Positions 15,652-40,602 of a stretch of DNA of 64,000 nt are shown here, in pieces; within the stretch, counting starts at the first letter, position 1; each line of letters begins with the position of its first letter. Origin of the DNA: Anniella stebbinsi (Eukaryota > Chordata > Lepidosauria > Squamata > Anniellidae); NCBI GenBank assembly GCA_029215795.1, contig JARDYH010000007.1:74535763-74599762 (forward strand), given 5' to 3'. A model generated the notes under the pieces. It did not search any database, was not told where the DNA came from, and saw only the letters and a list, made by a program, of their open reading frames with translations. The position numbers and the translations under genes were made by a program.

Positions 15652-15711
15652 ATGAAGCTCCCGGTTGCAGTGGTCGTTTTTTGGGTGTCTGTGATCTACA
15701 CAGATGCACAG
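15652..15711 (+). CDS. Gene B signal-peptide exon
   Basis: Codes for [20 protein letters not shown]: Lys-2, a hydrophobic [11 protein letters not shown] core and a likely cleavage after Ala-19, which would leave an N-terminal Gln. Donor GTAAGG. The ATG context is AAGATGA, and it is the first ATG after the TATA-like box. Confidence 0.8.
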
Positions 15712-18700
15712 GTAAGGTTGAAATGAACCTCTATGGGAAAATCCAGTTTCAATTTTTAATTGGGCAGGAGGAGGGGATGGAGAGATGGAGTGGCAGACCC
15801 AATATGATTCAAACACCATGGGTTGGATCCAAACTAACAATGCAATCGTATGCACGTCTAGTTGAAAGTAAGTCCCATAGGTTCTTCACTCCCAGGGAAG
15901 AGGGCATAGGATTTCAGCCTAGGTTAGTTGCATGGATGTCTCATTGGAATTGAGACATAACTCATTTAACTCCTATTGATTACAGAAGGAACTAAGCACA
16001 AGTAATTTAGCCTGGATCGGGCCCTTTGATTTATTTCTATATATCAGGGATGCACAACCGGCAGCTTGCAGGTCATGTGCAGCCCCTGGCTGCTCCCAGA
16101 GATAGGAGATAAGGGGAGGATTTCCCTTGTTAGTGCTAGTGGTGGTAAGGTTCATCCAGTGGAGTCTGATGGCTCTGAATTCAGTGGGGCTGCGATTCTG
16201 TCCGGGATTTCAGTCCGAACGAGACAGAGCACTAAAGGAGCTATCCAGGGAGCTGAACCCATTTTGAGAATAGGGTTAACACCTTGGACAGCTCCTTTAG
16301 AATTCTGACTGGTTCGAACTGAAATTGGAGCCACCAGCATCCACTGCATTCATCTTTATGCTGGCTGATTGCCCTGTCAGCAATTGCCAAGGTCAATTCA
16401 GCACTAGTAGGTTTTATTTATTTATTTATTTATTTACTGCAATAGCCGAAGCTCACGGGGCAGTTTACAAAAATTAAAACCATAAAAGCCATTCAAATAT
16501 AAAACAACGATGGTATAAAAACATAATATAAAATACAATATAAAAGCACAACCAGGATAAAACTGAGCAGCCATGCAGAACTTAATATGGATTTAAAATG
16601 CAAATTTAAACAAGGTTAAAAATCAAACTGAGGAACTGTTAAAATACTGAGAAAATAAAAAGGTCTTCACCTGGCATCTAAAGGAGTATAATGCAGGTGC
16701 CAGGCAAACCTCTCTAGGGAGCTCATTCCACAGCCAGGGTGCCACAGCAGAGAAGGCCCTCCCCCTAGTAGCCACTTGCCTCACTTCTTTTGGCAGGAGC
16801 TCACAGAGAAGGACCCTGAAGATGATCTTAGGGTCCAGGCAGGTACATATGGGAGGAGGCATTTCTTCAGATAACCTGGCCCCAAGCCATTTAAGGCTTT
16901 GAATGTTAATACCAACACTTTGAATCGGACCTGGACTGGCAGCCAGTAAAGCTGGAAAAGGACTGGCATAATGTGGTCTTGTTGGCCAGTCTCTGTTAAC
17001 ATTCTGGCTGCCCTATTTTATACCAGTTGAAGTTTCCAGACCGTTTTCAAAGGCAGCCCCATGTATAACACATTGCAGTAATCCAAACAAGCGGTTATTG
17101 GAGTGTGGATAACTGTAGCTAGGCTATCTCTGTCCAGATAAGGGTGCAGTTGGTATATCAGCCTAAGCTGATAAAAGGTGCTCTTTGCCACTGAGTTCAC
17201 CTGTGCCTCAAATGACAGTTCTGGATCCAGGAGCGCTACCAAACTAAGGACCCAATCCTTTAGGGGAAATGCAACCACATCCAAAACAGGGTGAACATCA
17301 TCTAGCCGGACAGACGAACCACCCACAAACAGTACCTTCATCTTGTCTGGATTGAGTCTCAATTTCTTGGCCCTCATCCAGTCCATTACCATGCCCAGGC
17401 ACTGATTCAGATCAGCCACTGCCTCACCTGGGTTTGATGAAAAGGAGAGGTAGAGCTGGGTGTCATCCACATATTGATGACACCTCTGTCCACATCTCCC
17501 AGTGGTTTCATGTAAATGTTGAACAGCATAGGGTATAAAATAGAACCGTGTGAAAGCCCATGGCCAAGGTGCCATGGCACAGAGCAATAATCCCCCTGTA
17601 CCAACTTCTGGAATCAGCCATCCAAGTAGGAGCGGAACCACTGCAGTACAGTGCCTCCAACTCCCAGCCCAGACAACCTATCCAGAAGGATACCATGGTC
17701 GATGGTATTGAAAGCCGCTTAGAGGTCCAAGAGAATCAACAAGGTCACACTCCCCCTATCCCCTAGTTGGTACTTGAGCTCAACCATCACCAGGGGGAGA
17801 TGGGGCAGGCATTTTAAGCAACCTGGTTAAGTTTACCCACTTCCTGTTCTAATACAGGTGAAATGCTGAATTATAGCTATATCACAGGTAAATTTCTTTA
17901 CTGATAGCAGTTGTCTTCCAATGTTTATATTCCTTAACTTCACACATGAGTAGGCTCTGAGTTCTGAGTTGGTTGCATTGTAATCTTCTTCTGACAACAT
18001 GTATTGTGGAAGGAGTAGGGCTGAGTAACCTGTGTATCTATTTTTACAGCGTTCCTTCGGTGGACTTCCACCTCCACCTCCAGTAAGTATGAGAAACTCT
18101 GTTTTGGATAATTTAAATTTCCTTGAGGTGGGCTACCTGGCTCTCTCTCATGAGGTTATCTGCCTCCTGCGCGCCTCCTGCCTCTTCTAGCCTTCTTTAC
18201 GTGAAAACAAACCCACCCCAGTATGTCCGACTTATTTTTTGAGATGGAACTTGCCGCTATCCCTTGCTGTGTGCAGGAGAAGCAGTAGGATCAAGGCGGC
18301 CCACTGAATGGGCCTCATGCACATTTTTTACTTCCTCTTTTGAAAGAGGAAGTAATGAGGGACGAACGCACGGGTGGAGAAGCAACGGTAAGGAAACACG
18401 ATTTCCCCCCTTGTGATGACGCTCAATGTGTGTTGGGCAAGAAGTAGGAATGAGCAACCTGTGTATCTTTGCTTTTACAGGCTGGCTTTAGTGGGCCCCA
18501 ACTTCCTCCCCCGCCCTCAATAAATATGAGAAAGTCTGTTTTGGATTATTTTAGTTCCATTGATACTTGTCTGTTTTCTATTCACATCAACCCGCCTTCC
18601 CCATATATATAGGCTGCATTCACACAACATGATAATCCACACTCAGATTGAATATGGGTTGTCGTTGAACCATGGGTTATTGAAACATGGCTTGTTGTGT

Positions 18701-21605
18701 TGTCTGAACCCTGCTGTGCTAGCAAACAATGGTTTGTTAAGCCACAAACAACCCATAAAGAGAACCCATGTTTTGTAGTTGGGTTGTGAACCATGAGTTA
18801 TAGGATTGAATAACCTGGGTGTCTTTATTTTTACAGGGTTCATTTGGTGGTCCCCCACCTCCACCTCCACCCCCAGTAAGTATGAGAAACACTTTTGGAA
18901 TTATTTCAGTTGTTTTGATAATTCTCTGTTTTTATTTCCCATTCTCTGTTTTCATTTCATTTCCTCTACCCCTATAAATATAGGCTGCATTCATGCAACA
19001 TGAAAACCCACACTCAAAGGCTGAATATAAGTTGGCATTGAAGTTTGGGTTGTAATTGAAATATGGCGTGTTGCGTTGTCTGAACCCAGCTGTGCTAACA
19101 AACCATGTTCTGTTAACCACAAACAACCCATGGAGGGAACCCGTGGTTTGTTGTTGGGTTGTAAACTGTGGGATATAGGACTGAGTAATCTGTGTGCCTT
19201 TATTTTCACAGGGTTCATTTGGTGGGCCTCCACCTCCACCCCCAGTAAGTATGAGAAACACTGTTCAGGATTATTTCAGTTTCTTTGATAATTCTATTTT
19301 CATTTCCCATCATTCCACCCCCCCCAATACATATAGGCTGCATTCACACGACACAAAAACCTACACTCAAAGACTGAGTATAGGTTGTCATTGAACTATG
19401 GGTTGTTATTGGAACATGGCTTGTTGTGTTGTCTGAACCCAGCAGTGCTAACAAACCATGGTTGTTAAACACAAATAATAACCCATGAAGAAAACCCATG
19501 GTTTGTTGTTGGGTTGTAAACCGTGGGTTATAGAAGTGAGTAACCTGTGTGTCTTTATTTTTTCAGGGTTCATTTGATTGGCCCCCGCCTCCACCCGCAC
19601 CCCAAGTAAGTATGAGAAACTTTAGTTCAGATTATTTCAGCTTCTTTGATGATTCTGTTTACATTTCCTGTGTTTTATTTTTATGTAGTACATTAACAAG
19701 ATCATTTTTGTATTTCTATAGGGGCCTCCTGGCTATGCTAGCCCTGGTTATGCTGGACCAGTGAGTATGGCAAATATACCTCTAATCTCTTTATTTCCCA
19801 GGAATGTTACAAGGGAAGATAGAAATGCTTCCCTTGGGAAAACACCTGGATTCCACAAGACACAAGGACTGCAGTTACATTTCATTGCTCCAGGAAAAAA
19901 ATCTTGTGAAAATTCCCTGAACTGAATCTACATAGACTGCATTCACACATCATGCTAAGCCATGGATACTTCCAACAAGGGCCGGCCCTCCCATTGCAAG
20001 TTTCTTGTCACTGTGGGCAAATTCACATGACATAGCAGCCGATGGGTTAAACAACAAGCCTTGGGTTAACCGCTGTATCATTTAGCCTCTAAACGATCCA
20101 ACACTCTGGGATTAGATGCCATATGAAGCCATGTAGGGTGGAGCCGCTTTTGGGTTGCTAAGGAAAAGCAGAAGTAGCGGATGTGTTGCAGACATCACGT
20201 CTGCTTTCTCCTGCACCTGGATGGCATTGGCTGTGTTTTGTGAACCAGGTCAATTTGTGTTGGGCAAGAAACAGGACAGAGTGACCTGGGTATCTTTATT
20301 TTTACAGCGTCCCTACGATCGGCCTCCACCTCCACCAGTAAGTATGAGAAACTTTGTTGTGGATGGTTTTCGTTTCCTTGATGTGGGCTACCTAACTCTA
20401 CAGCTCAATTCAGATATCACTCACACCCACACTGTGCTTTGGGTTGGTTGGTTTATTAATTAATTTATTAAATTTCTATACACTGGAACTGGCAGATGCC
20501 ACCAGGGCAGTTTGCAATAATGAACAAACCCCAAAGAACAGTAAAATAACAAACAAAATGATAATTAGAACAATGAGAATATCATATTAATATTAAAATA
20601 TTAGCACAGAAACGTTTTTGAAAAATAATAGCGAGCCAACGTAATAACAAGGTCTTAACCTGGCATCTAAATTGATCACCCTGGGAAGCGTATTCAACAG
20701 TCAGGAGTAGGTGCCGCTACAGAGAAGGCTTTGCCCCTGGTAGCCACCTGATGCACCATTATGGGCAGCGGCACAGTTCAAGCTGCAGGAGCCCTGCCCT
20801 CTTTTGTATATGGTCACTCTAGTATAGCTCCTGCAGCATTAACTGTTATGATGAAGAGGGAATTTCACCAGGTGCTGCATGCCTACAAAGGACACCTGCT
20901 GAAATTGCCCTTTCAATACAACTTTAAAAGATACAGGAGCCCTGTCCTCTTTTCCATATGGTCACGCTATCTAGTCCAGAAGTCATGCCATGTTGTAACA
21001 TCATATTGACAAGAATCACAATGTTTTATTCTAAATTATGTTTGTGGGAAGCAACAACACTTTTTTTCTTCAGTTTTTTTTTAAAAACAACAAGAACAAC
21101 AACATTGCTATAGGGGGATTCCACCTTCGGCTCTCCCGCTGGTTATAGTGGCCCAGTAAGTAGGGCATCTTTTCTCTCTGTGTATATATCACATCTCCTT
21201 TGGAATCGGCATTATGCAAGTGGGACCCATAAGAAAATGTTGCCACAGAGCAGCCTTCTTCAACTTGGTGCCCTCCAGATGTGTTGTACTGCAACTCCCA
21301 TAATCCCCCACCAGCACAACCATGGGAATTATGGAGCTGCAATCTAACACATCTATGGGGCACCAGTTGGAGTTGGCTCTGCTATATCCTCAACGCGTAA
21401 CAGGAAACTTCCTATTTTGGGCTCCTGCTAGCCAGCCATGGCCTCTTCCAGGCTACTGTTAGGGGCTCCAGCAAGCCATTCCGTTCTTCATCCCCTCCCT
21501 TTTTCATTTCCAACATTCGGTGACAAGTGAGCAGGCTGAATCTTCACTGGGTTATTTGGGTGGTGGTCATGTTTGCTTGTTTTGCCCTCTTAGGGTCCCC
21601 CCTAT

Positions 21606-21652
<47 letters not shown>

Positions 21653-24600
21653 GCCCCACTCGTACTCTTTGCTCATCAAATGTTATGTTTCTTACCCTCC
21701 CAAAAGTCTCTACTGTCAGCATCCCTGACAGATGGTTCTCCAGCTGCCTCTTGAATGCCTCTAATGTGGGAGAGCGCACCACCTCCCTAGGTCATTGGTT
21801 CCATTGTCGTACTGCTCTAATTTCCTGACTGTTAGAGCAATACGGCAATGGAACCAATGACATAGGGAGGTTGTGGGCTCTCCCATACTAGAGGCCTTCA
21901 AGAGGCAGCTGGACAACCCTCTGTCAGGGATGCTTTAAGGTAGATTCCTGCATTGAGCGGGGGGTTGGACTCGATGGCCTTATAGGCCCCTTCCAACTCT
22001 ACAATTCTATGATACTTCCCTTGCTCAGCTTTGTCCATTTTCTCTTGCTGCCCCCTATGCCTGAAATTCTCTTCCAGAGCATTTGCGGACCATGGGTTCA
22101 ATCACAGTCTTTGAAGCTCAATTGAAAACTTTTCTTTTTTCTAAAGCTTTTAGAACTTGATTTTGATCTTACTTTTATACTGTTAATTTTATTGTACATT
22201 CCCTTCCTTTTGTTGTTTTATTGTGATTTTATCAGCATGTAAGCCTACGTGGCAGAGCGTTGCTGTTTTATGGTTTGACTATGTATAGCACCATGTGCAT
22301 TGATGTTGCTAAATACATAGATACATACATATTATATTGTTCTTCTGCAAATCTTGAGGATCTGTTATATGCTACTGAAACTTCCCTCTTCTTTCTTCAT
22401 GGCCTTGTTTTGGCTCCAGTCCTGTCGGCACACAAGAGCCGAGTTTCCTATTAGAAGGACCAGTGCTTTCCCCAATTCCCCTCTCTCCCGCTTGCTGTTT
22501 CTTGGCTTGGTCTACAATGTGGGTCACATTGAAATGCAGCAGACAGCTCCTCCATCCCTCCAAATAAAGCGATAGAACAGCCCCGTACCACTCCTGCTGT
22601 TTATGCAGAGCATGGAGAATGTTGAAGAAGAGTGTGTGCCTGCTGCAGTTTCTCAGTATGGGCACGCCGCTGGGCCTCCCATTGTCATTACTGGAAAGCA
22701 GGTCATTATGTACAGACCCAGTCAAGAGCTACCACAGCATCCCCTCCCTATCCCCAGGAAATACACAGATACATTCATATATGCACAAGAGTGACGACTC
22801 CATCTTTTAATTTCAGCAGGACAGTCCTGGATATGATGGCTATGGCGCTCAAGGGTACCCTGTTCCTCCAGTGAGTATGGCCATTTTCTTTGCTTCCTAT
22901 TGGCTGGACTTTAAGATTAGTTGGATTTGTGGGCAGGAAAGAGGAGCAGGGACTCCTTAGTACTGGCCCCTATCTTATGGAACTTCCTTCCAAGACATGT
23001 CTAATTGACCCCCTCAGCTGGGGTCTTGAAAAAGGCTTTGAAACCCACCTGTTCCCAAAGGCTTTCCACTGACAGGTTTTATTCATCTTGCTGCCGTTTC
23101 ACTGATGTTTCATTACTGGGGATCAATTCTATTTTAATGTATTGTGGGCTTTTTGTGTTTTCTTGCATTTTGAAGTATTATGATCATGTGTGTGTGCATG
23201 TGTGTGTGTGTGTACTTGCATTTTCTTTGCTGCCTTCAATGAACTTGGCTCAGAAAGGAGGCTTATAAAGATTCCAATAAATACATGAAATAAATTCATT
23301 TCTTTCTTTCTGCAGAGGGCCCCTGGCAACCCAGGCTCTGGCTACTCTGGACCTGGCTACCCTGGCAATGGCTTCCCCAACAATGGCTACCCCGACAATG
23401 GCTACCCCAGCCATGTGAGTAAAAGAAGTGTGATTTGTCTGCTTGTGTCATAGATTCCCCCTTTGATAGACACCAGAGGATCTGCCCTAGTCCCATTGAT
23501 TTCCATGCATGCCTCACTTAGAAGCAAGCTTTGCATAGGCCTAAAGATGTGAGCGGGGGACTCTTTATGATTGGTCTACAGCAGGGATGGGCAGATGTGT
23601 CAGCCTCAATCCCACCAATGTTCTCTTTTTTCCACTGCCAAACATGTTCCAGCCCAGTTCCATAGGGGTATCCGCTAGGGTGACCATACGAAAAGGAGGA
23701 TAGGGAACCTGTATCTTTAGCAGTTGTATTAAAAAGGGAATTTCAGTAGGTGTCATTTGCAAGCATGCAGCCCCTGGTGAAATTCCCTCTTCATCACAAC
23801 AGTTACATCTGCAGGAGCCCTGCCCTCATTTGTTTCTGGTCAAGAGAGCAGGGTTTCTGCAGCTTTAACGGTTGTGATGAAGAGGGAATTTCACTAGGTG
23901 ATTCATGCATACAAATGGAGCCTGCTGAAATTCCTTTTTCTATACAACTGTTAAAGATACAGGAGCCATGTCCTCCTTTTCATATGGTCACCCTAGTATC
24001 CACCCCACCTCCAGCCACAAAGAAATCCATATTCATTTTTCTCTGCATTTCCCCCCCAAATGCACAGATTTTTGTCTGCATCTTTCCAGTGCGTGCATTC
24101 TTTTAATGCATTCACCCATGAACAAAAGTGTGCTTGTGTGCATTTTGGAAATGTATGCCATTTTCTTTGAACAGTGCATGTTAATGGACACTTTATTTGT
24201 TTTGTGGAATGCATCGTGAGCTCAGAAATGTACAGATTTCAGACTGCAAATTGTGTTCAGGCAAATTGTGTAAATACCTGCCCCAGAAGAATAGCAGCAC
24301 AAGGGTGGCCATGTGTCCTTTCTTTCACAAAGGACAGTCCTCTATAGGAGCATTGCCAGAGGACCGTCCTCTACATGAAGACATCCTCTGTTTGCACAGC
24401 TGTCCTCTCCTATTCCAGTTTAAAGATGAAGGATCATACGAATTGTTACACATCAATACTTATTAACACCTGAACTTTAGACTGAGCTCCAATCATTCAC
24501 ACTATGGTATGATGGACTGTATTTCTATTTAAATTATAATAATTGGTTCTAAATTTGCCTTCATACACTTGTAAATTTCATGTAAATCTTTGTCCTCTGA

Positions 24601-27600: not shown

Positions 27601-29731
27601 TTACAACAGTTAAAGCTGCAGGGGCCCTGCCTTCTTTTGTATATGGTCACTCTAACATAGTGCCTGCAACTTTAATTATTGTAATGAAGAGGAGATTTCA
27701 CCAGGTATTAATTGCATACAAATGATGCTGACTGAAATTCCCTTTTCTCTGCATCTGTTAAAGTTACAGGAGCCCTGTCCTCCTTTTCATATGGTCGGCC
27801 TATCTAAATGGCAAAGGAAATAAGGTTAGGCAATGGGGAATGAGCTTCTCTAAATAATCTATACCTTTTTCTTTACAGCCCACTTTCTTTGACTGGATAC
27901 GAGTAAGTTGATGAGAAGTGTTTTTCTTCTTAGACTATTTCATATAATTTCAGTGTTCAAGGGTGCTTCCAGACGGAGGGTTCCTAGTGCTATCAATTAA
28001 AAGGCACAGTGCCGCTGCTCCGTCTTTTCCTTCTTAACAGATTTTGTGTGGTAAGAAAAAAGCTCGGAAGAAGCGGTAGGAAAACACGGGAAAGTTACAA
28101 GTGGAAGACAATGTTGTCTAGACGCCCTGTTAAATTCCATGAATGAGGCAGTCCAACTGCATCATAAAAGCCTCATATGGAAGCACCCAAATACTGAGTC
28201 AGTACTTGTCATTACTGAATGAAAAAGTGGCTGGATTTTCACCACTATGGTATAGGCATGGTAGACTGGCGAGATCCAGTTTTAGATATCGGGTTAGCTG
28301 TGAAACTCCATGCATGTCCTCTCTGCTCAGCCTCAGCCTGTTGTGAAAACGGGGAAAGGGGAAGAGAGATTATCCTTGTTGAAACTGCTATATAAACAGA
28401 AAGCCAATTAAAAACATTGTTTTAAAAGAAATTGGGAGGGAGAATGGGCCTAGCTTCTTGGAAAATGGGAAGGTTAAAAATAGTAACCTCTTATGGCTCA
28501 GGGAAACTTGAGCATTCAACAGAAACAAGTAGGACTGTACCATTTCAGTTTGCCAGTGGTGGTAGAGTCACATATTTGAATGTTCCCTTATCTTAGTTGC
28601 TCTTAGCTGCTCACAGCATTTACAAAACCGGCAAGTCAGAGGGACAAGGTTTTACGTAAAAGAAGCAGGTTTTGTGGCTACGCATTCAAACATTGGCTGA
28701 ATTCGGACAACACAATAGTCAATGGTGGGGTAATAATCAACTTTACAGTTGTTCAACTAGGGGGTACTCCCCACACAACATGGTAATAAATAATCAACTG
28801 TGGTGTGGATTAGGATCAGTGCTGAGTTGACTATGGCAGCATTCGGACAACATGATAGTCAATACAACTGACGATTGTTCCCCCTCCCCCAAGTTGCTTA
28901 TTGTGTCATCCGAATTCAGCCATTGATTCACACTTGCAGTCTGAAGTGGTACAGTCTAGACAAACTTGTACCACTTGATTTTGCTAAATAGACTTCAGAA
29001 ATTGGTGAGTGGTTTCTGGATGTTACATTGTCCTACAGCTGAATAATTTACATCTAGCTTTGCTGGTTGAGGGATGCTGGGAGTTGTAGGACTTTTTTTC
29101 CCTACCGAAATACACATACACCTGTACCCTTACTTGTTGATTTTTTTAAAAAAAGTCCCTGGAGGTGGAACATTATAGCCATTGTCAATGAGTATATCAA
29201 ATCCTTCACATGGATGCATTGATGTGCAGCATCAGTGTAGCATCCGCGCATGCATTTCCTCAGTGTTCAGCAAACTAGCTTAAAGCAGACTCGAATTTGC
29301 AAAGGCATCTGAGACATTTTAATTTGGAATGCCCAAGACCATTTCAAATGGGATCTTTAAATTGGCCATTCCTCAACTGGTAGCTTGAGTTAAGCTCTTG
29401 AGTCCAGAATCTGCACAGAAAGCAAAAGATGAGTAACTCTTGTCATGGAGATAATGAGCCCATCTCTGCTGCTCTAGAGAACATTGGAATAAAAAGCAAG
29501 ATAAAGTAACAGCTGACTTTTCCTTCTTTCCCCCAGAAACATTTCAAGAGAAACAAAAATCATCCGGTGAGTACAGCTAGAATATATATATAGATATAGA
29601 TATATTCACATAACTGTGTCGATTTGAATGGAAGGTGAAGTTAAGATAAACATAAAGAGCCCTATACTGAGGGAGGTAGTTGCTTAATTTAACAGATGTA
29701 GCCATTTCCCAGGCTTTTCTCTCAGTGAAAT

Positions 29732-29766
<35 letters not shown>

Positions 29767-32700: not shown

Positions 32701-33136
32701 TTTTCTGAATATGGCCCAGCTTTCTGGTTTAATCACTATGGTTAAAGCCATGGTTTAAGGTGTCTTCAGAATGGGGCCAGTATAATGTAAACGAGTTTGG
32801 TCTTCAATGTGGTTTGATTTTTTAAAAAATGTAAATGATGTTTTTGGAGAAAAGCAAGATCAATGACTATATTACCCCCCTCTTGTTCTGCAGGGTGGCC
32901 CTGACTATGGTGAATTCCCTCCTCCTCCTCCTCCTGGATACAATGGCTATCCTAACCCAGTGAGTAGGACAAGTGTGATTTGTGTTCATGTGTCATATCC
33001 TCCTTTTGAATTAAGGATGGGGGAGAAATTCATTCAGCTTGTATTTCAATGCAAACTTACCAGATTTAAACTTCCTGAACCTCAACATGAACTGGAATGC
33101 AGTTTGCCATTGAAATCTGTATATTATTCCCCCCCC

Positions 33137-33184
<48 letters not shown>

Positions 33185-34600
33185 GCGTACCAAAATGCAT
33201 ACATTTGAAACAGTGGCTCAATTCGGACGACACGATAGTCAATGGTGGGTTGACTAAACCTAACCCTAACCCTAACCCTAGGGGGTACTCCCCACACAAC
33301 ATGGTAATAAATAATCAACTGTGGTGTGGATGAGGATCAGCGCTGAGTTGACTATGGCAGCATTTGGATGACACAATAGTCAAAACAACTGATGATTGTT
33401 TTCCCCACACCAGTTGTTTATTGTGTTGTCTGAATTGAGCCAGTGTGCGCACACACAAAAAGCACATATCTCAAAGAATGCAGACAGAAATGCACGTACT
33501 TGCAAAAATGCACAGAAAAATGCTTGATTCAATAGGAAAATTGTTTGAGGAAAATTCGTATATTTTGGAAAAAGGCCATCTGAGAACATGTACACTAGAA
33601 AACAATGCATACAGAAAGGTGCATTTTTTTCAGAAGGCACTCAAATATGTACATGTGTTCATGCGGAGTTGGGATGGAATGAACTGAGCATTGGAAAAAT
33701 GACAACCTAAGTGAAATCGAGCTTGAGAGATTTACCCGCCCCCTACTTATGATTGATGCTCTGTGAACTGCCTGACTCCATTCCTGTGAAGACGAGAGGG
33801 TATGGCTCTACTGCCACTAAATACCATGAAAAGCTCTCCCCTTACACTTACATCAAAACCAGAGGGAGCTTTTGTGTAGATGCAAATAGCGCACGTGGGA
33901 GTATCAACCTGGATTGGGAGCAAAGGGTTAAAGCCCCCTAGCTCTCCCCCTCCCCTCCGGGTCCCGGTTCAGACTGGGATCTGCAATTTACTCTTCAAAA
34001 AGTTCTGTGTGTTTGTTAAATGTGTGGATGGCGTCATGTCTAGATCATCCCTCAGTTTGTAGGCTCAGTTGTTCAACTCAAGACATTGTGTTCAGAGGAT
34101 AACGTTTTAGAAGCTCACCCTCATCTGAACCAAGCCAATTTTGAATCATTTCTTGGAGGGATATTTAAAGGGGGCTAGTTTCTCCTAAGGTAATTTCATT
34201 TGCTGCGAGTTGTTTTCTGCTTGCTCATACTGTTCAGTATTAATAGCATGCGCGCACACACGCACACACATGAGCTTGGCTCCTATGATGCCTAATAATA
34301 AAATAATGTTTATGGAAACCAACCAGATCAATGTTTTTATTTCTGTAGATTAAGCCTGACTTCCCTGGTCCTTTCTATGACCCTGCTGTATTCAATGGCC
34401 CAGTAAGTACGACAATCTACTTTGTCTGTGAGTGTCCTCTCATATCCCTCTTGAATTATTTTTTAAAAAGATTTTATTACTTTTCCAAAACAAAATTAAA
34501 CAAACCAACAGTAAAATAAGTCAGCAAATAAATAAATAAATAAATAAATGCACATTGGGTTTAAATGTAATTTTTGACAGAGTGCAATACATTTAACATA

Positions 34601-34642
<42 letters not shown>

Positions 34643-37398
34643 GGGTGTGCACGGACCCCCCGGATCGGATCGGGACCCGGATCGGGACCTCCAATTTTAT
34701 CATGGATCGGTTCGGACAAAATCGGAGCCCCCCCGGACCGGATCGAGTCCGATCCCGATCCAAAAATCGTAAATTTTTGGATCGGCTGCCATTTTCCCCC
34801 CCATAGACTTGCATTGCAATGCAAGTCTATGAGGAAAAAATGGCGGCGGGTGGGTGAGGGGGGGCCTAACTCCCTCCCCCCCGGGGCCGTCTGCTGTGGA
34901 CGGCCCCCGCAGGTAAGCCCCCTCCCCCGCGCTCCCTACCCCCCCTGGGGCCGTCCGCTTCCATCCGCTGGCGCCCGCGGGCACCCGCGGATAGAAGCGG
35001 ACGGCTCCGGGGGGGGTAAGCCCCCTTCCCCGCCACTGCTTACCTTTTAGGGCCGTTCGCTCCCGTCCAGCGCCGGCGGCTACCGCCAGCCGGCTTTGCG
35101 GCTTGCTCTAGAGTAGGGCGCCGGGTGATCACCTGGCGCGCCACCCTGGAGCAGGCCGCGGAGCCCGCTGGTAGTAGCCGCCGGTGCCGGACGGGAGTGG
35201 ACGGGCCAGAAAGGTAAGCGCCCCCCTCCTCCCCCCCTGCTGTCCACTTTCATCGGCGGGCGCCCGCTGGCGCCCACCAATGGAAGCGGCGGTGGGCGCC
35301 AGTGGGCGCCCGCCGATCCGCCGAACCAGTTCGGAGCCTTTTCGGATTGGTTCGGACTGGATCGGCGGAGCCAGCTGTTGGATCGGAAATCGGATAATTT
35401 ATCCGATTTCCCACTGGACCGGACTCGGATCGTGGATCGGGTCCGATCCAGTGCACATCCCTAATATATATATAATCTTTAACTTACAACCCGAGATATC
35501 GATGGAACACATAGGCTGCTTGGAGGTTTTCTTGACAATTCTTTACTATATAGCTCTATTTTGGACAATTAAGTGAACGACTGTTGTGTTTAAAAGAAGC
35601 TGGGTTTTCGGAATCCTGGCTGGGGGAGGGGGGAACAACCTCTCCATGCAGGGGCTATCTATATGCTGTCAAAAGAGTGGCTGCTAATCTGCACTGCATC
35701 AGTTATTTGATGCAGCTGCAGATTTGCAGCCATTGTGTGGCATTTCTGCAAAGCTGTGCAGTAAAAACAGTCAGGGACTGACCCCTACTTTTTCAGTAGG
35801 AGCAAGGTCACCCTGGCTCTTTTGCTGTCTGACCTTGCTCTGTGGCCGATTCGGAGAGTGGTCCTGGCAGAAGGCAACCAGTGATTGGTTGCCAGAAGCC
35901 AGGAAAAGGGCAGCGGGGAGGGCATCTCCAGTACCTGGATGACTGCCGGAAACCCCACACTTCCTCCTTGGTGTGGGGATTACCCAACGACAGCAGGGGT
36001 CAGTGCAACCACAGGGTTTTGGGGGTAATGTGGCACCAACTCAGTGCTGTGAAGACAGCCTCCCTCAGAAACTGAAATACGGAGACATGGGAAGGAATAT
36101 ATTTTGCTAAGAAAGGAAAGTTGGAGTAGCTGCACAGAAATATCAATACTTCCTTGCCTTCTCGCTTGTAGGCACCTCCTCCTCCTCCTCCTCAACCATT
36201 TCCAGGATATGATGACCATGTGAGTATTCCTTTCCTACAAACAAACAGGATTTGCATTTTTGTATAAACAGGAAATGTAAACATTTCCTGTTTCTTTTCT
36301 TTTAGCCTTCTCCAGATTATCCAGAATTTGTGAGTGTTCCTTTCCTTTCTTTTCCTTGATTGATTGATTGATTACTTTCCTACAAATAGGATTTGCTTAT
36401 TTTATATAATTGTAAAATACAAACATTTCCTGCCATCTCTCTTTTAGCCTCCTCTGGACTTTCCGGATTATGTAAGTATTCATTTCATTCCCTACAAACA
36501 GGATTTGAATCTTTTCTTTTTTTCTTTTTCTATAATTGTGAAATACAAATTTTCTGCCATTTTTTCCTTTTAGCCTTCTCCAGCATTTCCAGAATATGTG
36601 AGTATTCATTTCATTACCTACAAAGAAACTTTGCATCTCTTATATGATTGTGAAATACAAACATTTCCTGCCATCTCTCTTTTAGCCTCCTCCAGGCTTT
36701 CCATATGTAAGTATTCATTTCATTTCCTACAAACAGGATTTGAATCTTTCCTCCTATTTATATTATTATTATTATTGTTGTTGTTGTTGTTGTTGTTGTT
36801 AATATTATTGTTATTATGAAACACAAATTTTCAGCCATTTTTCTTTTAGCCTCCTCAGGGATATCCAGAATATGTGAGTATACATTTCATTTCCTAAGAA
36901 GAGGATTTGAATCATTTTTTTAAAAAATAAAACACAAATATTTCCTGCTGTTTCTGTTTTAGCCTCATCCAGGATTTCCAGAATATGTGAGTATTCATTT
37001 CAACCAAAAAGAACACACCCCTTGCATTATCTTGAAATCTGAGTTCTTGCCTTTTCCCTCCTAGCCTCCTCATGAATTTCCTACAAACAGGATTTTATAG
37101 CTTCTGTAGCCCTATTCAGGTGTCCTTCTTCAATGTAGAATCAAACATGATGGAGGAGGCCAAAGATAATCAAACTAGTTCTGTGTCTCCCTGCTCCAGT
37201 TATGATCATCTTCCATGAGTTTGAGGATAACTTCTGAAGGAAGAAGCTGTTTTGATTTAGGAAACTCTTGGAAAATCATGCGGAGGAAGCTCCATGAGCA
37301 AAAATGGCTCCCCCCTGCACACCTTTGTCTCCGATTTGTGGAGGGCAGCAGACATAGCGCAGTATTCCTCACTCTCCCCCTTGCATGTCGATTCTACA

Positions 37399-37443
<45 letters not shown>

Positions 37444-40400
37444 TTATATACCACCCCATAGCCGAAGCTGTCTGGGCGGTTTACAAAAATTAAAACACTG
37501 AACATTAAAAAATCAATATACAAAATTTAAAACCATAAACCATAAAAACAGCTAATATTTAAAACATTTTAAACTTTTAAACCTGGCCAAAAATTCAGTT
37601 AAAAACCTCAACTTAAGCTGTTAAAATGCCTGAGAGAAAAGAAAAGTTTTGACCTGCAGCCAAAATGATAACAGTGTTGGCGCCAAGCAGGCCTCATTGG
37701 GGAGATCATTCCATAATTGGGGGGGCCACCACAGAGAAGGCCCTCTCCCTTGTTGCCATCCTCTGAGCTTCCCTCAGAGTAGGCACCCAGAGGAGGACCT
37801 TAGATGTTGAGCATAGTGTACTGGTAGGTTCATGTTGGGAGAGGTGTTCGATCAGATATTGTGGTTCCAAGCTGTGTAAGACTTTATAGGTTAAAACCAG
37901 CACCTTGAATTGGGCTCAGGAACGTACAGGCAGTCAGTGCAAGCGGGCCAGAGTAGGTCTTATATGTTCGAACCTTCTGGTCTCTGTTACCAATCTGGCC
38001 GCTGCATTTTGCACAAGCTGCAGCTTCTGAACCATCTTCAAAGGCAGCCCCACATAGAGTGCAATGCAGTAATCCAACTTGGCAGTTACCAGAGCATAGA
38101 CAACTGAAGCCAGGTTATCCCTGTCCAGATAGGGTCATAGCTGGGCCACCAACCAAAGTTGGTAGAAGGCACTCTGTGCCACCGAGGCTACCTGAGCCTC
38201 AAACGACAGAGATGGTTCTAGGAGAACCCCCAAGCTAAGAACAGTTGAACAAGGCTCATAATATCTTGAAATGGGAGTCATGCCTGTCTTTTCTCTTGTA
38301 GAAACCCAGCGAATATGAAAAACAGGTGAATCTTTATGTTCTATTAATAGCATTGGCTACTTTTGTATGACCTTGAAATAAGAGTGATTCCCACTTTTTC
38401 TTGTTTAGGATACTCCAGAAAATGCAGTAAATATAACCCTGGTGAGTATTCCTTTCACAGAAACAGATTTCAATGTTTTGTATCATTCTGAAATATGAGT
38501 AATTCTTTCTTTTTCTCTTCTCTATTCAGGCGGGAGCTGAAATGGAAGCTAAAGAAGTAAGTATTCCCTCACAGGGGAATTGCATGTAACTGTTTCCTCC
38601 CTTCCCCATATCTTTTAGCCTCCTCAGGAATACCCATAGACTTACGAGGTAAATATTACAACTCCCCTTTGCAACAATGGTCTTTTATAGTATGCTGATA
38701 TACAACTCTATATACAGAGAAAAAAGATATTGTAGAGCTGGGAAAAGTGCAGAAAAGTGCACCTAAAATGATCAAGGGACTGGAGCACCTTCCTTATGAA
38801 GGAAGGATACAACAGCTGGGATTGTTTAGCCTGGAAAAAAGGAGGCTAAGGGGAAATCTGACAGAAGAGTACAAAATAGTGCATGGTATGGAGAATGTGG
38901 ACAGGGAGACATTTGTCTCCCTCTCCAATAAAACTAGAAGCTGGGGTCATCCCATGAAGCTGATTGGTGGGAGATTCAGGACATAGAAAAGGAAATACTT
39001 CTTCATACAGTGCATAGTTAAACTATGGAATTCACTACCACTATATGTGATGATGGCCACCAATTCACTACCACAAGATGTGGTGATGGCCACCAATTTA
39101 CTATCACAAGATGGGATGATGGCCACCAATTCACTACCACAAGATGTGGTGATGGCCACCAATTTATCCAAAAGGGGGTTGGATAAATTCCTGGAGAAGA
39201 AGGTTATTGATGGCTACTAGTCCTGATGGCTAAGTGCAACTGCCAGTATCAGAGGCCTATATACACCCATTGCTGGGGAATGTGGGTGGGAGGGTGCTGT
39301 TGCACCGTGTCCTGCTTGTGGGTCCCTGGTCGACAGCTGGTTGACCACTGTGTGAACAGAATGCTGGACTAGATGGACCCTTGGTCTGATCCAGCAGGGC
39401 TCTTTTCTTAAGTTCTTTATTTTCTTCTCTTTTAGCCTTCTCCAATTCCACCAGTGAAGGTGAGTGTTGCACCTTGCAGAAAGAGTCCTTTGCATTAGCC
39501 CGGCTGTTCAAATGCCGACAGATGCATGGACAAGTTTCTTTGCTCTGAAAATTTCACCCAGAGTTTTGTAGGGATTGCCAGTAGAAATGACCTTGACCCA
39601 TAGCAGGTCAAAACAGAATGAGGATGTTTCCCACCCCCTTTCCAGGAGTTTGAATTAGAGACAAACTAGACCCGTGTATGTGTGTGTGATCCCATTTGAG
39701 ACCATCTTGGTGGGGGAAGAGACTGTTTGCTCATGCAATGGTGCTGATGTAGGTCACCCTCTTCTTGGCGGCCTGTTTCACGCAATTGCTAGTTGTGCAA
39801 TTATCATCACATCTAGTTTGGACCTTGCTGGGCCTGTTCAGACAACCCACTAAGCCATGGTTAGGCCACTACCCCTTTTACAGCAAATGGTTATTGAGCA
39901 TGTTTAAGCCGTGTGTGAACCATGGTTAGGAATGGTTCACACAACACACTAAGCCATAATGTTTAGCTCAAAATGCTTAACCACCGTGGCTTAGCGTGTC
40001 GACTGGACATGGTCGTTGAGTCATGCTTAGAATCGACTTTAGTTGACATGGCTAACATGATCCATTTATTTTAGTGGGCTTACTCTAAGTATGACTTTGG
40101 GCAGATCTACACTAAGCAGGATATGACACTTTGAAAACGGTTTGAAAACTGTATATGGAGTGTATCCTGGGCCCCAACAGTTGTTACCACTGTTATAAAC
40201 CATTTTAAAGCAGCAGTGTAGATCCTGCCCTGGTCTGGATCTAACTCACTGTCTCCTTTGTCTACTTCACAATATGCTTCTACACAGATTAGCCATGACC
40301 ATAATTGCCCTATCAACTCTTCAGAATCCTGATTTACAGAGTTCCTGTATCATGTTGCTGATACAATCATTTAGGAACCACTCCGGGTCCATTCACAAGC

Positions 40401-40602
40401 CTCTTCTTTATTCTTTCCAAGTGCATCATTGCAAAAGAGTTAATTAATGATCCACCCTCACCCCTTTTTAGCAAGTACATGTTGAACTTTCTCCTGTGAG
40501 AAACATCCACCTTCAAGCTATTTGACACATGCTCTGAGTTAGTTGCCTGCCTTTTGTTTTTCCAGGCATGAGAAAAGTTACCATCTCGCCAAGGAAAACC
40601 AG
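15652..40602 (+). CDS. Gene B: secreted micro-exon protein with basic core and acidic tail
   Basis: Not a recognised named gene. A signal-peptide exon is followed by about 30 exons of 18-99 bp, all multiples of three and all joining in phase 0. Taking the stop at 38637-38639 the product is about 376 residues from 31 exons over 23 kb. Order: signal peptide (1-20); Arg/Gly-Ser-Phe-Gly-Gly plus polyproline exons; Gly-Tyr-Pro repeats; a basic block of seven exons (about +12); Gly-Tyr-Pro again; an acidic aromatic octapeptide array and tail (about -12) with one N-glycosylation sequon. No cysteine, so probably disordered and secreted. All-phase-0 exons and a separate signal exon are also seen in SCPP genes, but no Ser-x-Glu phosphorylation motif is present. 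Function unknown; expression unproven. Confidence 0.72.
16150..16345. mobile_element. Palindromic MITE in the first intron of gene B
   Basis: Ends AGTGGAGTCTGATGGCTC and the inverted GGAGCCACCAGCATCCACT, with inner arms around GGAGCT. Related sequence at 50032-50175. Confidence 0.6.
16412..17800 (-). mobile_element. L2-like LINE, 3' 1.4 kb with RT remains, minus strand
   Basis: The minus strand holds a 207-codon frame (17018-17641) with [20 protein letters not shown], the RT catalytic YxDD region, then [20 protein letters not shown]. The 3' end is A-rich with a TTTA run. Lies in the first intron of gene B. Confidence 0.85.
18050..18082 (+). CDS. Gene B micro-exon, [11 protein letters not shown]
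   Basis: 33 bp between TTTTTACAG and GTAAGTATG, phase 0-0. The intron flanks are those of class B exons in gene A. Confidence 0.75.
18481..18519 (+). pseudogene. Decayed gene B exon, [13 protein letters not shown]
   Basis: Good acceptor (CTTTTACAG) and an intact 39-bp phase-0 frame, but the donor reads ATAAATATG in place of GTAAGTATG. The first donor base is lost, so the exon is probably skipped. Confidence 0.7.
18837..18875 (+). CDS. Gene B micro-exon, GSFGG plus eight Pro
   Basis: 39 bp between TTTTTACAG and GTAAGTATG, phase 0-0. Confidence 0.75.
19212..19244 (+). CDS. Gene B micro-exon, GSFGG plus six Pro
   Basis: 33 bp between TTTTCACAG and GTAAGTATG. A close copy of the preceding exon module, two codons shorter. 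Confidence 0.75.
19567..19605 (+). CDS. Gene B micro-exon, [13 protein letters not shown]
   Basis: 39 bp between TTTTTTCAG and GTAAGTATG, phase 0-0. Diverged member of the GSFGG series. Confidence 0.75.
19722..19760 (+). CDS. Gene B micro-exon, [13 protein letters not shown]
   Basis: 39 bp between TTTCTATAG and GTGAGTATG. The flanks are class A; the preceding intron is only 116 bp. Confidence 0.75.
20308..20337 (+). CDS. Gene B micro-exon, [10 protein letters not shown]
   Basis: 30 bp between TTTTTACAG and GTAAGTATG, phase 0-0, class B flanks. Confidence 0.75.
20450..20770 (-). mobile_element. LINE fragment, minus strand
   Basis: TTAATTTATTAAATTTCTAT start, A-rich body and a TACAGAGAAGGC motif typical of the local LINE family. 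Confidence 0.6.
20771..20970. mobile_element. hAT-type MITE, partial
   Basis: Lacks the left end. Contains TATATGGTCACTCTAG in the middle and ends CCATATGGTCACGCTA. Confidence 0.7.
21114..21155 (+). CDS. Gene B micro-exon, [14 protein letters not shown]
   Basis: 42 bp between TTGCTATAG and GTAAGTAG, phase 0-0, class A flanks. Confidence 0.7.
21243..21371. repeat. Palindromic MITE-like repeat
   Basis: CTTCTTCAACTTGGTGCCC and the inverted GGGGCACCAGTTGG. Family of 5245-5455. Confidence 0.6.
21608..21649. repeat. (TA)n microsatellite
   Basis: About 42 bp of pure TA. Confidence 0.95.
21690..22013. mobile_element. Two CR1 3' fragments, head to head
   Basis: 21690-21830 is minus-strand CR1; 21831-22013 is the same region on the plus strand, ending GCCCCTTCCAACTCTACA and TTCTATGAT. 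Confidence 0.8.
22018..22330 (+). mobile_element. LINE 3' UTR-like fragment
   Basis: T-rich sequence ending in AGCACCATGTGCATTGATG and AAATACAT, shared in style with 63040-63395. Confidence 0.45.
22817..22870 (+). CDS. Gene B micro-exon, [18 protein letters not shown]
   Basis: 54 bp, donor GTGAGTATG. The acceptor TTTCAGCAG is a NAGNAG tandem, so the first Gln may be optional. Confidence 0.75.
22960..23295 (+). mobile_element. LINE 3' fragment with a (TG)n run
   Basis: Contains CCTATCTTATGGAACTTCC and AACCCACCTGTTCCCAAAGG, typical of LINE ORF2 3' ends, then a 25-bp TG run at 23189-23213 and AATAAATACAT. Confidence 0.5.
23316..23414 (+). CDS. Gene B largest micro-exon, Gly-Tyr-Pro repeats
   Basis: 99 bp, 33 residues, opening [17 protein letters not shown] and continuing with three GxPxNGYP-like repeats to a terminal His. 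The repeats are also seen in DNA (CCCCAACAATGGCTAC, CCCCGACAATGGCTAC). Acceptor TTTCTGCAG, donor GTGAGTA. Confidence 0.78.
23676..23995. mobile_element. hAT-type palindromic MITE with target duplication
   Basis: 320 bp, ends TAGGGTGACCATACG / CATATGGTCACCCTA. Flanks GTATCCGC (23668-23675) and GTATCCAC (23996-24003) form an 8-bp duplication with one mismatch. In a gene B intron. Confidence 0.8.
24300..24430. repeat. GTCCTCT-rich repeat
   Basis: Related to 26098-26225; both share CAGAGGAC / GTCCTCTGTTTG motifs and end AGTTCCAGTTTAAAGA or close to it. Confidence 0.5.
25099..25122 (+). CDS. Gene B micro-exon, HGHGDRRP
   Basis: 24 bp between TTTTGTAG and GTGAGTATG. First exon of the basic block; the His-Gly-His-Gly could bind metal, which is inference. 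Confidence 0.72.
25298..25335. repeat. (GGA)n microsatellite
   Basis: Purine-only GGA/GAG run, intronic. It produces poly-Glu and poly-Arg chance frames. Confidence 0.9.
25563..25580 (+). CDS. Gene B smallest micro-exon, GKRNGW
   Basis: 18 bp between TTTTTCTAG and GTAAATAC, phase 0-0. Confidence 0.65.
26098..26225. repeat. GTCCTCT-rich repeat, second copy
   Basis: See 24300-24430. In the intron before the FDFLKRLP exon. Confidence 0.5.
26472..26495 (+). CDS. Gene B micro-exon, FDFLKRLP
   Basis: 24 bp between CTTGCAG and GTAAGTAC. Basic and hydrophobic. Confidence 0.72.
27195..27227 (+). CDS. Gene B micro-exon, [11 protein letters not shown]
   Basis: 33 bp between TTTTTTAG and GTGAGTA. Basic and hydrophobic. 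Confidence 0.72.
27483..27802. mobile_element. hAT-type palindromic MITE
   Basis: 320 bp, ends TAGGCTGACCATATG / CATATGGTCGGCCTA. Seven flanking bases, TCTAAAT, are repeated on both sides. Confidence 0.8.
27879..27902 (+). CDS. Gene B micro-exon, PTFFDWIR
   Basis: 24 bp between TCTTTACAG and GTAAGTTG. Confidence 0.7.
28695..28921. mobile_element. 227-bp palindromic MITE (GGCTGAATTCGG family)
   Basis: Ends GGCTGAATTCGGACAAC and the inverted CCGAATTCAGCC. Flanked by ATT on both sides. Same family as 33215-33441 and 60859-61084. Confidence 0.75.
29537..29566 (+). CDS. Gene B micro-exon, [10 protein letters not shown]
   Basis: 30 bp between CCCCCAG and GTGAGTAC. Four Lys/Arg and two His in ten residues make it the most basic exon. 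Confidence 0.75.
29725..30225 (-). mobile_element. LINE 3' end, minus strand
   Basis: (TTTA)n, CCCAATAGCCGAAGC, A-rich body, and on the minus strand [20 protein letters not shown] from ORF2. Confidence 0.85.
30764..30802 (+). CDS. Gene B micro-exon, [13 protein letters not shown]
   Basis: 39 bp between TTGCTATAG and GTGAGTATG, class A flanks. Ends the basic block. Confidence 0.75.
30905..31412. mobile_element. Longer relative of the 227-bp MITE
   Basis: Begins GGCTGATTTCGCATGACAC and ends with the inverted TGTGCGAAACCAGCC. Interior includes a pyrimidine-rich tract. Its right part matches the flanks of the nested copy at 60.6-61.15 kb. Confidence 0.6.
32172..32228 (+). CDS. Gene B micro-exon, [19 protein letters not shown]
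   Basis: 57 bp between TTTCTGTAG and GTGAGTATG, phase 0-0. Confidence 0.75.
32474..32503. repeat. (CTAT)n microsatellite
   Basis: Seven to eight tetranucleotide units. Confidence 0.9.
32544..32778. mobile_element. Palindromic MITE (CCATTCAGAAGACACC family)
   Basis: Ends GGCCCCATTCAGAAGACACC and the inverted GGTGTCTTCAGAATGGGGCC. Two internal repeats of the same motif make it a double palindrome. Confidence 0.75.
32894..32959 (+). CDS. Gene B micro-exon with a (CCT)6 polyproline run
   Basis: 66 bp, 22 residues: GGPDYGEF, six Pro coded by pure CCT, then GYNGYPNP. Acceptor TTCTGCAG, donor GTGAGTAG. Confidence 0.75.
33137..33180. repeat. (CT)n(CA)n microsatellite
   Basis: A CT run followed by about 15 CA units. 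Confidence 0.9.
33215..33441. mobile_element. 227-bp palindromic MITE carrying telomere-like repeats
   Basis: Ends GGCTCAATTCGGACGAC / CTGAATTGAGCC, flanked by AGT on both sides. At 33256-33280 it carries ACCCTAA-type repeats in place of the sequence found in its sisters. Confidence 0.75.
34349..34402 (+). CDS. Gene B micro-exon, [18 protein letters not shown]
   Basis: 54 bp between TTTCTGTAG and GTAAGTAC, phase 0-0. Confidence 0.75.
34602..34638. repeat. (TG)n(TA)n microsatellite
   Basis: Interrupted by insertion of the element at 34639-35464; TA repeats resume at 35465. Confidence 0.85.
34639..35464. mobile_element. GC-rich DNA element with TTAGGG-TGTGCAC ends
   Basis: 826 bp, ends TTAGGGGTGTGCAC and the inverted GTGCACATCCCTAA (one mismatch). 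Subterminal GGATCGGATCGG motifs, very GC-rich core, no transposase frame. A partial relative ends at 59295. Confidence 0.7.
36172..36219 (+). CDS. Gene B micro-exon, [16 protein letters not shown]
   Basis: 48 bp between GCTTGTAG and GTGAGTATT. Another pure CCT run codes for six Pro. Confidence 0.75.
36306..36329 (+). CDS. Gene B octapeptide exon, PSPDYPEF
   Basis: 24 bp between TCTTTTAG and GTGAGTG. First of a compact array with introns of about 90-145 bp. Confidence 0.75.
36448..36471 (+). CDS. Gene B octapeptide exon, PPLDFPDY
   Basis: 24 bp between TCTTTTAG and GTAAGTATT. Confidence 0.75.
36574..36597 (+). CDS. Gene B octapeptide exon, PSPAFPEY
   Basis: 24 bp between CCTTTTAG and GTGAGTATT. 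Confidence 0.75.
36686..36706 (+). CDS. Gene B heptapeptide exon, PPPGFPY
   Basis: 21 bp between CTTTTAG and GTAAGTATT. One codon (Glu) shorter than its neighbours. Confidence 0.72.
36761..36805. repeat. (ATT)n(GTT)n microsatellite
   Basis: In an octapeptide-array intron, accounting for its greater length. Confidence 0.85.
36850..36873 (+). CDS. Gene B octapeptide exon, PPQGYPEY
   Basis: 24 bp between TCTTTTAG and GTGAGTATA. Confidence 0.75.
36963..36986 (+). CDS. Gene B octapeptide exon, PHPGFPEY
   Basis: 24 bp between TGTTTTAG and GTGAGTATT. Confidence 0.75.
37065..37100 (+). pseudogene. Broken octapeptide exon fused to intron sequence
   Basis: Acceptor CTCCTAG and a PPHEF start are intact, but the exon runs straight into TCCTACAAACAGGATTT, the intron motif seen after the sibling exons, and reaches TAG at 37098. 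A short deletion has removed the exon end and donor. If used it would be an alternative C-terminus. Confidence 0.65.
37402..38262 (-). mobile_element. L2-like LINE 3' end, minus strand
   Basis: (AAT)n at 37402-37444, then CCATAGCCGAAGCTGTCTGG and an A-rich 3' end. The minus strand reads [16 protein letters not shown], the ORF2 C-terminal region also seen at 44.2 kb. Inserted in gene B between the octapeptide array and the KPSEYEKQ exon. Confidence 0.85.
38302..38325 (+). CDS. Gene B micro-exon, KPSEYEKQ
   Basis: 24 bp between TCTTGTAG and GTGAATC. Directly follows a LINE insertion. Confidence 0.65.
38409..38441 (+). CDS. Gene B micro-exon, [11 protein letters not shown]
   Basis: 33 bp between TTGTTTAG and GTGAGTATT. 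Asn-Ile-Thr is the only N-glycosylation sequon seen in the gene. Confidence 0.7.
38530..38556 (+). CDS. Gene B micro-exon, AGAEMEAKE
   Basis: 27 bp between TATTCAG and GTAAGTATT. Acidic, with no Pro. Confidence 0.68.
38619..38639 (+). CDS. Gene B probable last coding exon, PPQEYP-stop
   Basis: Acceptor TCTTTTAG. The frame reads PPQEYP then TAG (38637-38639), followed 10 bp later by a GTAAATATT donor. Either this is the stop of the protein, or the exon was a PPQEYP-type module killed by a nonsense change and is skipped. Confidence 0.55.
   Translation, partial: PPQEYP
38708..39418 (+). mobile_element. CR1 LINE 3' part with an internal 33-bp minisatellite
   Basis: Contains AAAATGATCAAGGGACTGGA and TTTAGCCTGGAAAAAAGGAG, and ends near GGTCTGATCCAGCAGGGC. 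About four 33-bp units (GATGGCCACCAATTCACTAC...) occupy 39029-39165. Confidence 0.8.
39436..39459 (+). CDS. Gene B optional micro-exon, PSPIPPVK
   Basis: 24 bp between CTTTTAG and GTGAGTG, phase 0-0. Coding only if the stop-containing exon at 38619 is skipped; otherwise a relic or UTR. Confidence 0.45.
39832..40015. mobile_element. Palindromic MITE (CTAAGCCATGGTTAGG family)
   Basis: Starts GGGCCTGTTCAGACAAC; inner inverted arms around AAGCCATGGTTA / TAACCACCGTGGCTTA. Further copies at 54888, 57735 and 61150. Confidence 0.65.
40566..40602 (+). CDS. Gene B distal terminal exon (Ala-stop)
   Basis: Follows TTTTTCCAG. In phase 0 it reads GCA TGA and ends at a GTGAGTCC donor. Paralogue of 5826-5866; the two differ by a 4-bp gap after the stop. 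It would end the protein if exon 38619 is skipped. Confidence 0.45.

Follow-up and report, generated by a model that had tools for sequence, protein, structure and literature searches.

A probable micro-exon gene for a predicted secreted, proline-rich protein lies beside at least two others in a squamate genome

A 64-kb window of the Anniella stebbinsi genome (64,000 nucleotides, the whole stretch of DNA analyzed here) contains what is probably a real and functional micro-exon gene, which we call gene A. The original prediction had described one gene in this DNA, which understated the number; at least three micro-exon genes (U, A, and B) are present in the window. Judged from the sequence, it is probable that gene A is a genuine squamate protein-coding gene, a paralogue of gene U, and that it encodes a secreted, disordered protein from duplicated phase-0 exon cassettes. 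Gene A is new as a family, while its style of gene is already known.

The gene A model was built by reading the raw sequence together with a splice-site scan. Its coding span (15652-40571, + strand) consists of a signal-peptide exon, 30 internal phase-0 exons, and an exon encoding alanine and the stop codon (Ala-stop), and the whole gene, including a predicted 3'UTR exon, extends from 15652 to about 41910. When joined, the exons give a single open frame of 378 cysteine-free residues, in good agreement with the continuous frame of about 376 residues proposed earlier. The internal exons lie between 18050 and 39459 and measure 18 to 99 bp; 29 of the 30 are no longer than 66 bp, and 10 are exactly 24 bp. 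All 31 exons before the last have lengths that are multiples of three, and 28 of the 31 donors read GTRAGT (GTGAGT in 16 and GTAAGT in 12). The earlier description of a signal-peptide exon followed by about 30 tiny multiple-of-three exons was thus re-derived as exon 1 plus 30 internal exons. All 31 introns are in phase 0, but phase 0 is what the scan looked for. The looser scan recovered 29 of the 30 internal exons, the exon at 21114 falling below threshold and being added by eye. Duplicated exons were sorted by eye into three families, with type 1 combining GSFGG with prolines. The features of gene A are listed below; exons are based on the scan and the joined frame unless another basis is given.

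15568-15575 (+): TATA-like element AATAAATA, non-canonical, 84 bp before the ATG; motif match only
-54 (+): Inr-like YYANWYY element (TCACACT); motif match only
15652-15711 (+): exon 1, start codon and predicted signal peptide (20 aa); best 11-residue Kyte-Doolittle mean 2.96
18050-18082 (+): exon 2 (11 aa), type 1
18482-18520 (+): decayed type-1 copy, outside the frame; donor GT now AT
18837-18875 (+): exon 3 (13 aa), type 1
19212-19244 (+): exon 4 (11 aa), type 1
19567-19605 (+): exon 5 (13 aa), type 1
19722-19760 (+): exon 6 (13 aa), type 2
20308-20337 (+): exon 7 (10 aa), type 1
21114-21155 (+): exon 8 (14 aa), type 2; by eye, below scan threshold
22820-22870 (+): exon 9 (17 aa); an alternative acceptor 3 bases upstream adds Q
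23316-23414 (+): exon 10, 99 bp, GYPGN-type repeats
25099-25122 (+): exon 11, HGHGDRRP; the basic core begins
25563-25580 (+): exon 12, GKRNGW, 18 bp
26472-26495 (+): exon 13, FDFLKRLP
27195-27227 (+): exon 14 (11 aa)
27879-27902 (+): exon 15, PTFFDWIR
29537-29566 (+): exon 16 (10 aa)
30764-30802 (+): exon 17 (13 aa), type 2
32172-32228 (+): exon 18 (19 aa)
32894-32959 (+): exon 19 (22 aa)
34349-34402 (+): exon 20 (18 aa)
36172-36219 (+): exon 21 (16 aa)
36306-36329 (+): exon 22, PSPDYPEF, type 3
36448-36471 (+): exon 23, PPLDFPDY, type 3
36574-36597 (+): exon 24, PSPAFPEY, type 3
36686-36706 (+): exon 25, PPPGFPY, type 3
36850-36873 (+): exon 26, PPQGYPEY, type 3
36963-36986 (+): exon 27, PHPGFPEY, type 3
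37065-37081 (+), end approximate: decayed type-3 copy, donor lost
38302-38325 (+): exon 28, KPSEYEKQ
38409-38441 (+): exon 29 (11 aa), with the sole N-glycosylation sequon, NIT
38530-38556 (+): exon 30, AGAEMEAKE
38619-38648 (+): type-3-like copy with an in-frame TAG (PPQEYP, then stop); decayed, or an alternative protein end
39436-39459 (+): exon 31, PSPIPPVK
40566-40602 (+): exon 32, GCA TGA (Ala-stop), 31 nt of 3'UTR, then a donor; within the block aligned to gene U
41656-41910 (+), end approximate: predicted terminal 3'UTR exon, AATAAG/ATTAAA at 41886/41893

The copies at 18482, 37065, and 38619 and the predicted 3'UTR exon at 41656 were absent from the exon list drawn up previously. If ever spliced in, the copy at 38619-38648 could terminate a shorter isoform. 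Only 8 of the 31 exon 3' ends (donors 15712-39465) are G, although 28 of the 31 donors read GTRAGT; the weak exon side of these donors seems to be offset by their intron side.

Upstream of gene A, the window holds the 3' part of gene U.

1-7800 (+): gene U, upstream paralogue, 3' part only; runs off the window at left
485-514, 840-872, 1143-1172, 1487-1519, 2376-2405 (+): exons, by scan
2811-2849, 3343-3372, 3698-3730, 4003-4032 (+): exons, by scan
4356-4388 (+): exon, by eye, donor GTTAGT
5826-5866 (+): last coding exon, Ala-TAA (GCA TAA)
from 7580 (+): predicted 3'UTR exon, AATAAA at 7778

Nine of the 10 gene U micro-exons were recovered by the looser scan. Type 1 and type 2 exons alternate in this gene (GGFGGQQPPFP, GFGGSGSVGM), and they recur at about 2.86 kb, with an internal duplication of 93% over 1681 bp. 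Among the first 45 matches listed, some of which are dispersed repeats, the alignment of gene U with gene A covers introns as well as exons. The blocks around the Ala-stop exons align at 75.6% over 521 bp and those around the 3'UTR exons at 76.8% over 413 bp. The stop falls at the same codon in both genes, though it is TAA in gene U and TGA in gene A, and this shared position links the last exon to the frame independently of the scan. On these alignments, gene A is a tandem paralogue of gene U. The limit for nonsense-mediated decay usually lies 50-55 nt before the last junction; the distance from stop to last splice junction is 35 nt in gene U and 31 nt in gene A, inside that limit, and nonsense-mediated decay is therefore not expected.

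The third gene, gene B, lies downstream.

52286-52351 (+): gene B exon 1, predicted signal peptide MTFQVVAAVLLVSLLCPKESAS; consensus TATA box TATAAATA at -77
54566-63517 (+): span of the 8 gene B micro-exons, 18-33 bp; the gene exits the window at right
55380-55397, 60150-60182, 62227-62247, 63494-63517 (+): micro-exons, by the looser scan
54566-54592, 56718-56738, 57416-57442, 58224-58244 (+): micro-exons, by eye

Because 4 of its 8 micro-exons were read by eye, gene B is less certain than genes A and U. Its early exons are Gly/Leu-rich (for example, LPLLGGGGS and LLGGTSG), and it contains an internal duplication of 91% over 1633 bp; the internal duplications in genes U and B indicate that exon-bearing segments were duplicated recently in both. 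No nucleotide similarity between gene B and gene U or A was found outside apparent dispersed repeats (judged to be repeats by their recurrence), and we therefore claim no paralogy for gene B. BPIF (PLUNC) proteins, which have a BPI fold domain, likewise show a Gly/Leu-rich stretch behind the signal peptide; the 86 residues of gene B that lie in the window gave no Pfam or solved-structure match.

From Gln-20 on (359 residues), the predicted gene A product is 31% Pro, 16% Gly, 8% Tyr, and 7% Phe. Its charge is distributed in blocks: a Pro/Gly repeat block carries -2 over 135 residues, a basic core +12 over 53, and an acidic, tyrosine-rich tail -15 over 170. There are seven dibasic steps, all between residues 161 and 208. 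The original prediction of a secreted squamate protein made from micro-exons agrees with the re-derived frame and splice motifs, and the product would be secreted on the evidence of a leader judged by hydropathy only; it would also be mostly disordered. We infer expression, splicing, tissue, and function of gene A, like the secretion and disorder of its product, from the sequence. An amphipathic helix was considered for the basic core and rejected, as the helical moment was not significant at 5% against shuffles of the core's own letters (fractions 0.06 to 0.27).

The body of the gene A product would have grown as phase-0 exon cassettes with flanking introns were duplicated again and again. 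Gain, loss, or skipping of a cassette leaves the frame intact, since every cassette is symmetric, and length and motif number could therefore change fast, maybe with several splice forms. The product may be an exocrine or matrix protein made in bulk, with self-association driven by opposite charges together with Tyr/Pro contacts, and cleavage at dibasic sites may free its basic core to act as a membrane-active peptide. If that last step were instead the point of the gene, gene A would be a bioactive-peptide precursor in which the basic core (exons 11-17) is cut out at GKR and RR and the repeats serve as spacer or pro-piece. GKR is a signal of the amidation type and dibasic residues are processing sites, and the core sequence resembles both kinds of signal; the contrast between the core at +12 and the tail at -15 also fits. 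The SCPP cluster, similar in architecture, encodes antimicrobial proteins as well, according to the available part of one report (PMC7840901). However, the core accounts for only 53 of 378 residues, has a helical moment not above that of its shuffles, and gave no significant match among solved structures (one match at E = 7), and we regard the precursor reading as unlikely.

Relatives of gene A were sought in sequence collections. The whole protein had no relative at an E value of ≤1 among 5.77 billion proteins (7984 top word-sharing candidates scored, probably crowded by proline words), and residues 154-222 gave 8 candidates, none at an E value of ≤10; this search needs shared five-residue words and is weak for a low-complexity protein. 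As a positive control, a LINE reverse-transcriptase fragment from the window returned 40 proteins, of which 29 were named, all from squamates (Pogona, Varanus, Rhineura, Podarcis, and snakes); squamate proteins are therefore in the collection, and the window is of squamate origin. Gene A is without a recognizable protein of similar length in this collection, in line with the earlier suggestion that usual gene models do not cover it, but a blank search does not equal absence in other species, because annotation can miss short-exon genes and the search needs five-residue words. Parts of genes A, U, and B matched no Pfam model at an E value of ≤1, an Rfam search of the window gave nothing useful, and NCBIfam gave no useful match for gene A, which means little because that library is prokaryotic. 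No squamate micro-exon gene family was among the literature matches listed, in a source whose coverage leaves aside most subscription papers, and the available part of PMC13367325 contained nothing on gene structure.

The closest relatives of the control fragment itself (17018-17677, - strand) come from Pogona vitticeps and Varanus komodoensis. It also matches several proteins annotated in Varanus under unrelated names (e.g., FGFR2 and UBE2U), which therefore seem to carry the repeat.

Schistosome micro-exon genes (MEGs) had been named as the known case of this gene style, with vertebrate examples called rare. The MEG parallel stands, but the account was incomplete, as it left out the alpha-s caseins, which come close among vertebrates. 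Caseins are disordered secreted products; in SCPP genes, introns within the coding part are in phase 0, and the surroundings of the SCPP cluster include SPARCL1, ODAM, AMTN, AMBN, and ENAM. By layout, the alpha-s casein type of SCPP gene is the closest vertebrate architecture that we found for gene A. In the available parts of two reports, the alpha-s caseins (CSN1S1 and CSN1S2) share with gene A a leader exon of its own, numerous exons of 18-45 bp, exon duplication, and a stop ahead of the terminal exon, and share with its locus a tandem gene cluster (PMC12470106, PMC4414411). Of the 19 exons of ruminant CSN1S1, seven measure 24 bp; the gene shows extensive exon duplication and a stop ahead of the last exon, and its 63-bp leader exon covers the leader plus mature residues 1 and 2 (PMC12470106). 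Llama CSN1S1 has 21 exons, the smallest 18 bp (PMC4414411). The ruminant CSN1S1 stop codon is split by an intron (PMC12470106), which breaks the SCPP phase-0 rule, whereas that of gene A is unsplit. A noncoding exon 1 is given for AMTN and a signal peptide in exon 2 for all SCPP genes, and an SxE phosphorylation motif is described for AMTN and the enamel matrix proteins, in the part of PMC4373244 available. Caseins differ from gene A in having a noncoding exon 1 and conserved phosphorylation-site exons, neither of which was found in gene A; gene A, for its part, has 32 exons with coding sequence and a Pro/Gly/Tyr-rich product, and no similarity to caseins was detected.

These likenesses raise the question of whether gene A is a strongly diverged SCPP member, related to the enamel, saliva, and casein genes, that has lost the noncoding exon 1 and SxE. 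Such an origin would suit the casein-like features of gene A: its own leader exon, phase-0 micro-exons (10 of the 30 internal ones being 24 bp), duplicated exons, a proline-rich product, a stop before the 3'UTR exon, and genes in tandem. However, the 120 bp before the gene A ATG contain no usable acceptor (best score, -0.3), and this, together with the TATA-like element at -84, suggests, on motifs only, that transcription begins in the leader exon. Gene B is less clear, with weak acceptors scoring 1.6 at 104 bp and 0.8 at 37 bp upstream of its ATG, though TATAAATA stands at -77. The SxE motif typically belongs to the exon that follows the leader. The 378 residues of gene A contain no SxE and just two S-x-D (SFD and SPD), neither in the exon after the leader, and protein searches detected no homologue. 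SCPP membership of gene A is not supported by its sequence, and we regard it as unlikely.

Most exons of schistosome MEGs are 15 bp, within ranges given as 6-81 or 3-81 bp; like gene A, these genes combine a signal peptide, short symmetric exons, and long introns, and their secreted products have few conserved motifs, as described in the available parts of PMC10526429 and PMC5825161. A MEG has most of its coding sequence in short symmetric exons, and in gene A all 30 internal exons, of 18-99 bp, are symmetric, with secretion judged by hydropathy only. Gene A differs from schistosome MEGs in its exon lengths of 18-99 bp, its recognizable tandem exon families, and its phylum. Because the DNA is squamate, common descent with the trematode MEGs is very unlikely, and the likeness would be convergence; we saw no homology, which low-complexity sequence can hide. 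The epidermal differentiation complex (EDC) genes of squamates resemble gene A in extremely biased composition, clustering, and occurrence in reptiles, but have one or two coding exons in the available part of PMC9365767, against the 32 exons with coding sequence in gene A.

We give about even chances to a broader reading, in which this is a new, fast-changing squamate gene cluster, unrelated to SCPP genes, that arrived independently at the micro-exon design of MEGs and caseins, with motif number set by cassette duplication and possibly alternative splicing and with exons too short for annotation to notice. If expressed, gene A would extend phase-0 secretory genes made of tiny exons to reptiles, beyond the groups known to have them, and would offer a system in which protein repeats grow by duplication of exon plus intron and not by slippage inside an exon. 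It would also point to a kind of gene that can escape standard annotation. Whether micro-exon design is associated with proteins that face the outside world becomes a testable question.

We compared the duplicated exons within families. Length steps are all multiples of three (30, 33, and 39 bp in type 1; 30, 39, and 42 bp in type 2; 21 and 24 bp in type 3), a pattern that is partly built in because the scan demanded multiples of three. Pooled over the three families, in 66 pairwise comparisons (36, 15, and 15) that are not independent of one another, pN/pS was 0.59 in the called frame, compared with 1.25 and 0.95 in shifted frames 1 and 2. The counts here and below exclude the decayed exons as well as the gene U exons at 3343, 3698, and 4003, all nearly identical to retained exons. 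By family, the called frame gave 0.57 for type 1, 0.56 for type 2, and 0.79 for type 3; constraint in type 3 is weak, with frame 2 at 0.51, contrary to a coding reading. In type 1, pS (0.43) was about that of the flanking introns (0.44 and 0.41) and pN was 0.24, while in type 2 pS was high and noisy (0.65 pooled, with one pair above 1). With wider flanks, intron divergence was 0.40 to 0.46 for types 1 and 2, where pS was 0.43 to 0.65 and pN 0.24 to 0.36, and 0.37 to 0.40 for type 3, where pS was 0.26 and pN 0.20. These comparisons indicate mild constraint among the gene A exon copies. Diversifying selection had been considered for type-1 exons (0.09 to 0.27, versus 0.08 to 0.12 at intron positions +7 to +26) and was dropped on comparison with the wider flanks.

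The three decayed copies within gene A (18482, 37065, and 38619), one with an in-frame stop, point to exon loss, and they are what would be seen in a recently dead or dying gene cluster whose exon arrays are no longer translated. A dead cluster is nevertheless very unlikely, given that open frames and GT-AG are kept in the 31 exons before the last, with GTRAGT at 28 of 31 donors, and that the called frame shows constraint (pN/pS, 0.59).

Scans for candidate exons used textbook vertebrate splice frequencies as weights, not values fitted to this DNA. The strict setting required an acceptor score of ≥3, a donor score of ≥2, and open, phase-0 exons of 15-105 bp in multiples of three; the looser one accepted acceptors of ≥2 and donors of ≥1. 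Over the gene A stretch, the strict scan found 32 open phase-0 candidates, compared with 3 on the reverse strand and a mean of 1.8 (maximum, 5) in 60 dinucleotide-preserving shuffles. Of these candidates, 27 are exons of the gene A model; the remaining 5 either overlap as variants or are unrelated. With the looser setting, candidates rose to 36, including 29 model exons, while the shuffles averaged 4.8 (maximum, 10). The combined share of Pro, Gly, Tyr, and Phe among encoded residues is 58% for the 32 candidates and 18% for the reverse-strand candidates. Within the 30 internal exons, stops number 0 in 357 codons of frame 0, 4 in 327 of frame 1, and 21 in 327 of frame 2, a control that is partly circular because the scan admitted only exons open in frame 0. 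That splice-like motifs and low-complexity DNA are open here by chance is extremely improbable: although pyrimidine-rich DNA yields many weak acceptors, proline codons bring no stops, and frame 1 of the same exons is also stop-poor (4 of 327), 32 candidates stand against at most 5 in 60 shuffles and 3 on the reverse strand, and the paralogous gene U has the same stop position.

Elsewhere in the 64-kb window, the looser scan gave 23 candidates, comprising 9 exons of gene U, 4 of gene B, and 10 unrecognized. The intron between gene A exons 20 and 21 contains a GC-rich stretch (34641-35465) with GGATCGG-type repeats, in surroundings that appear AT-richer by eye.
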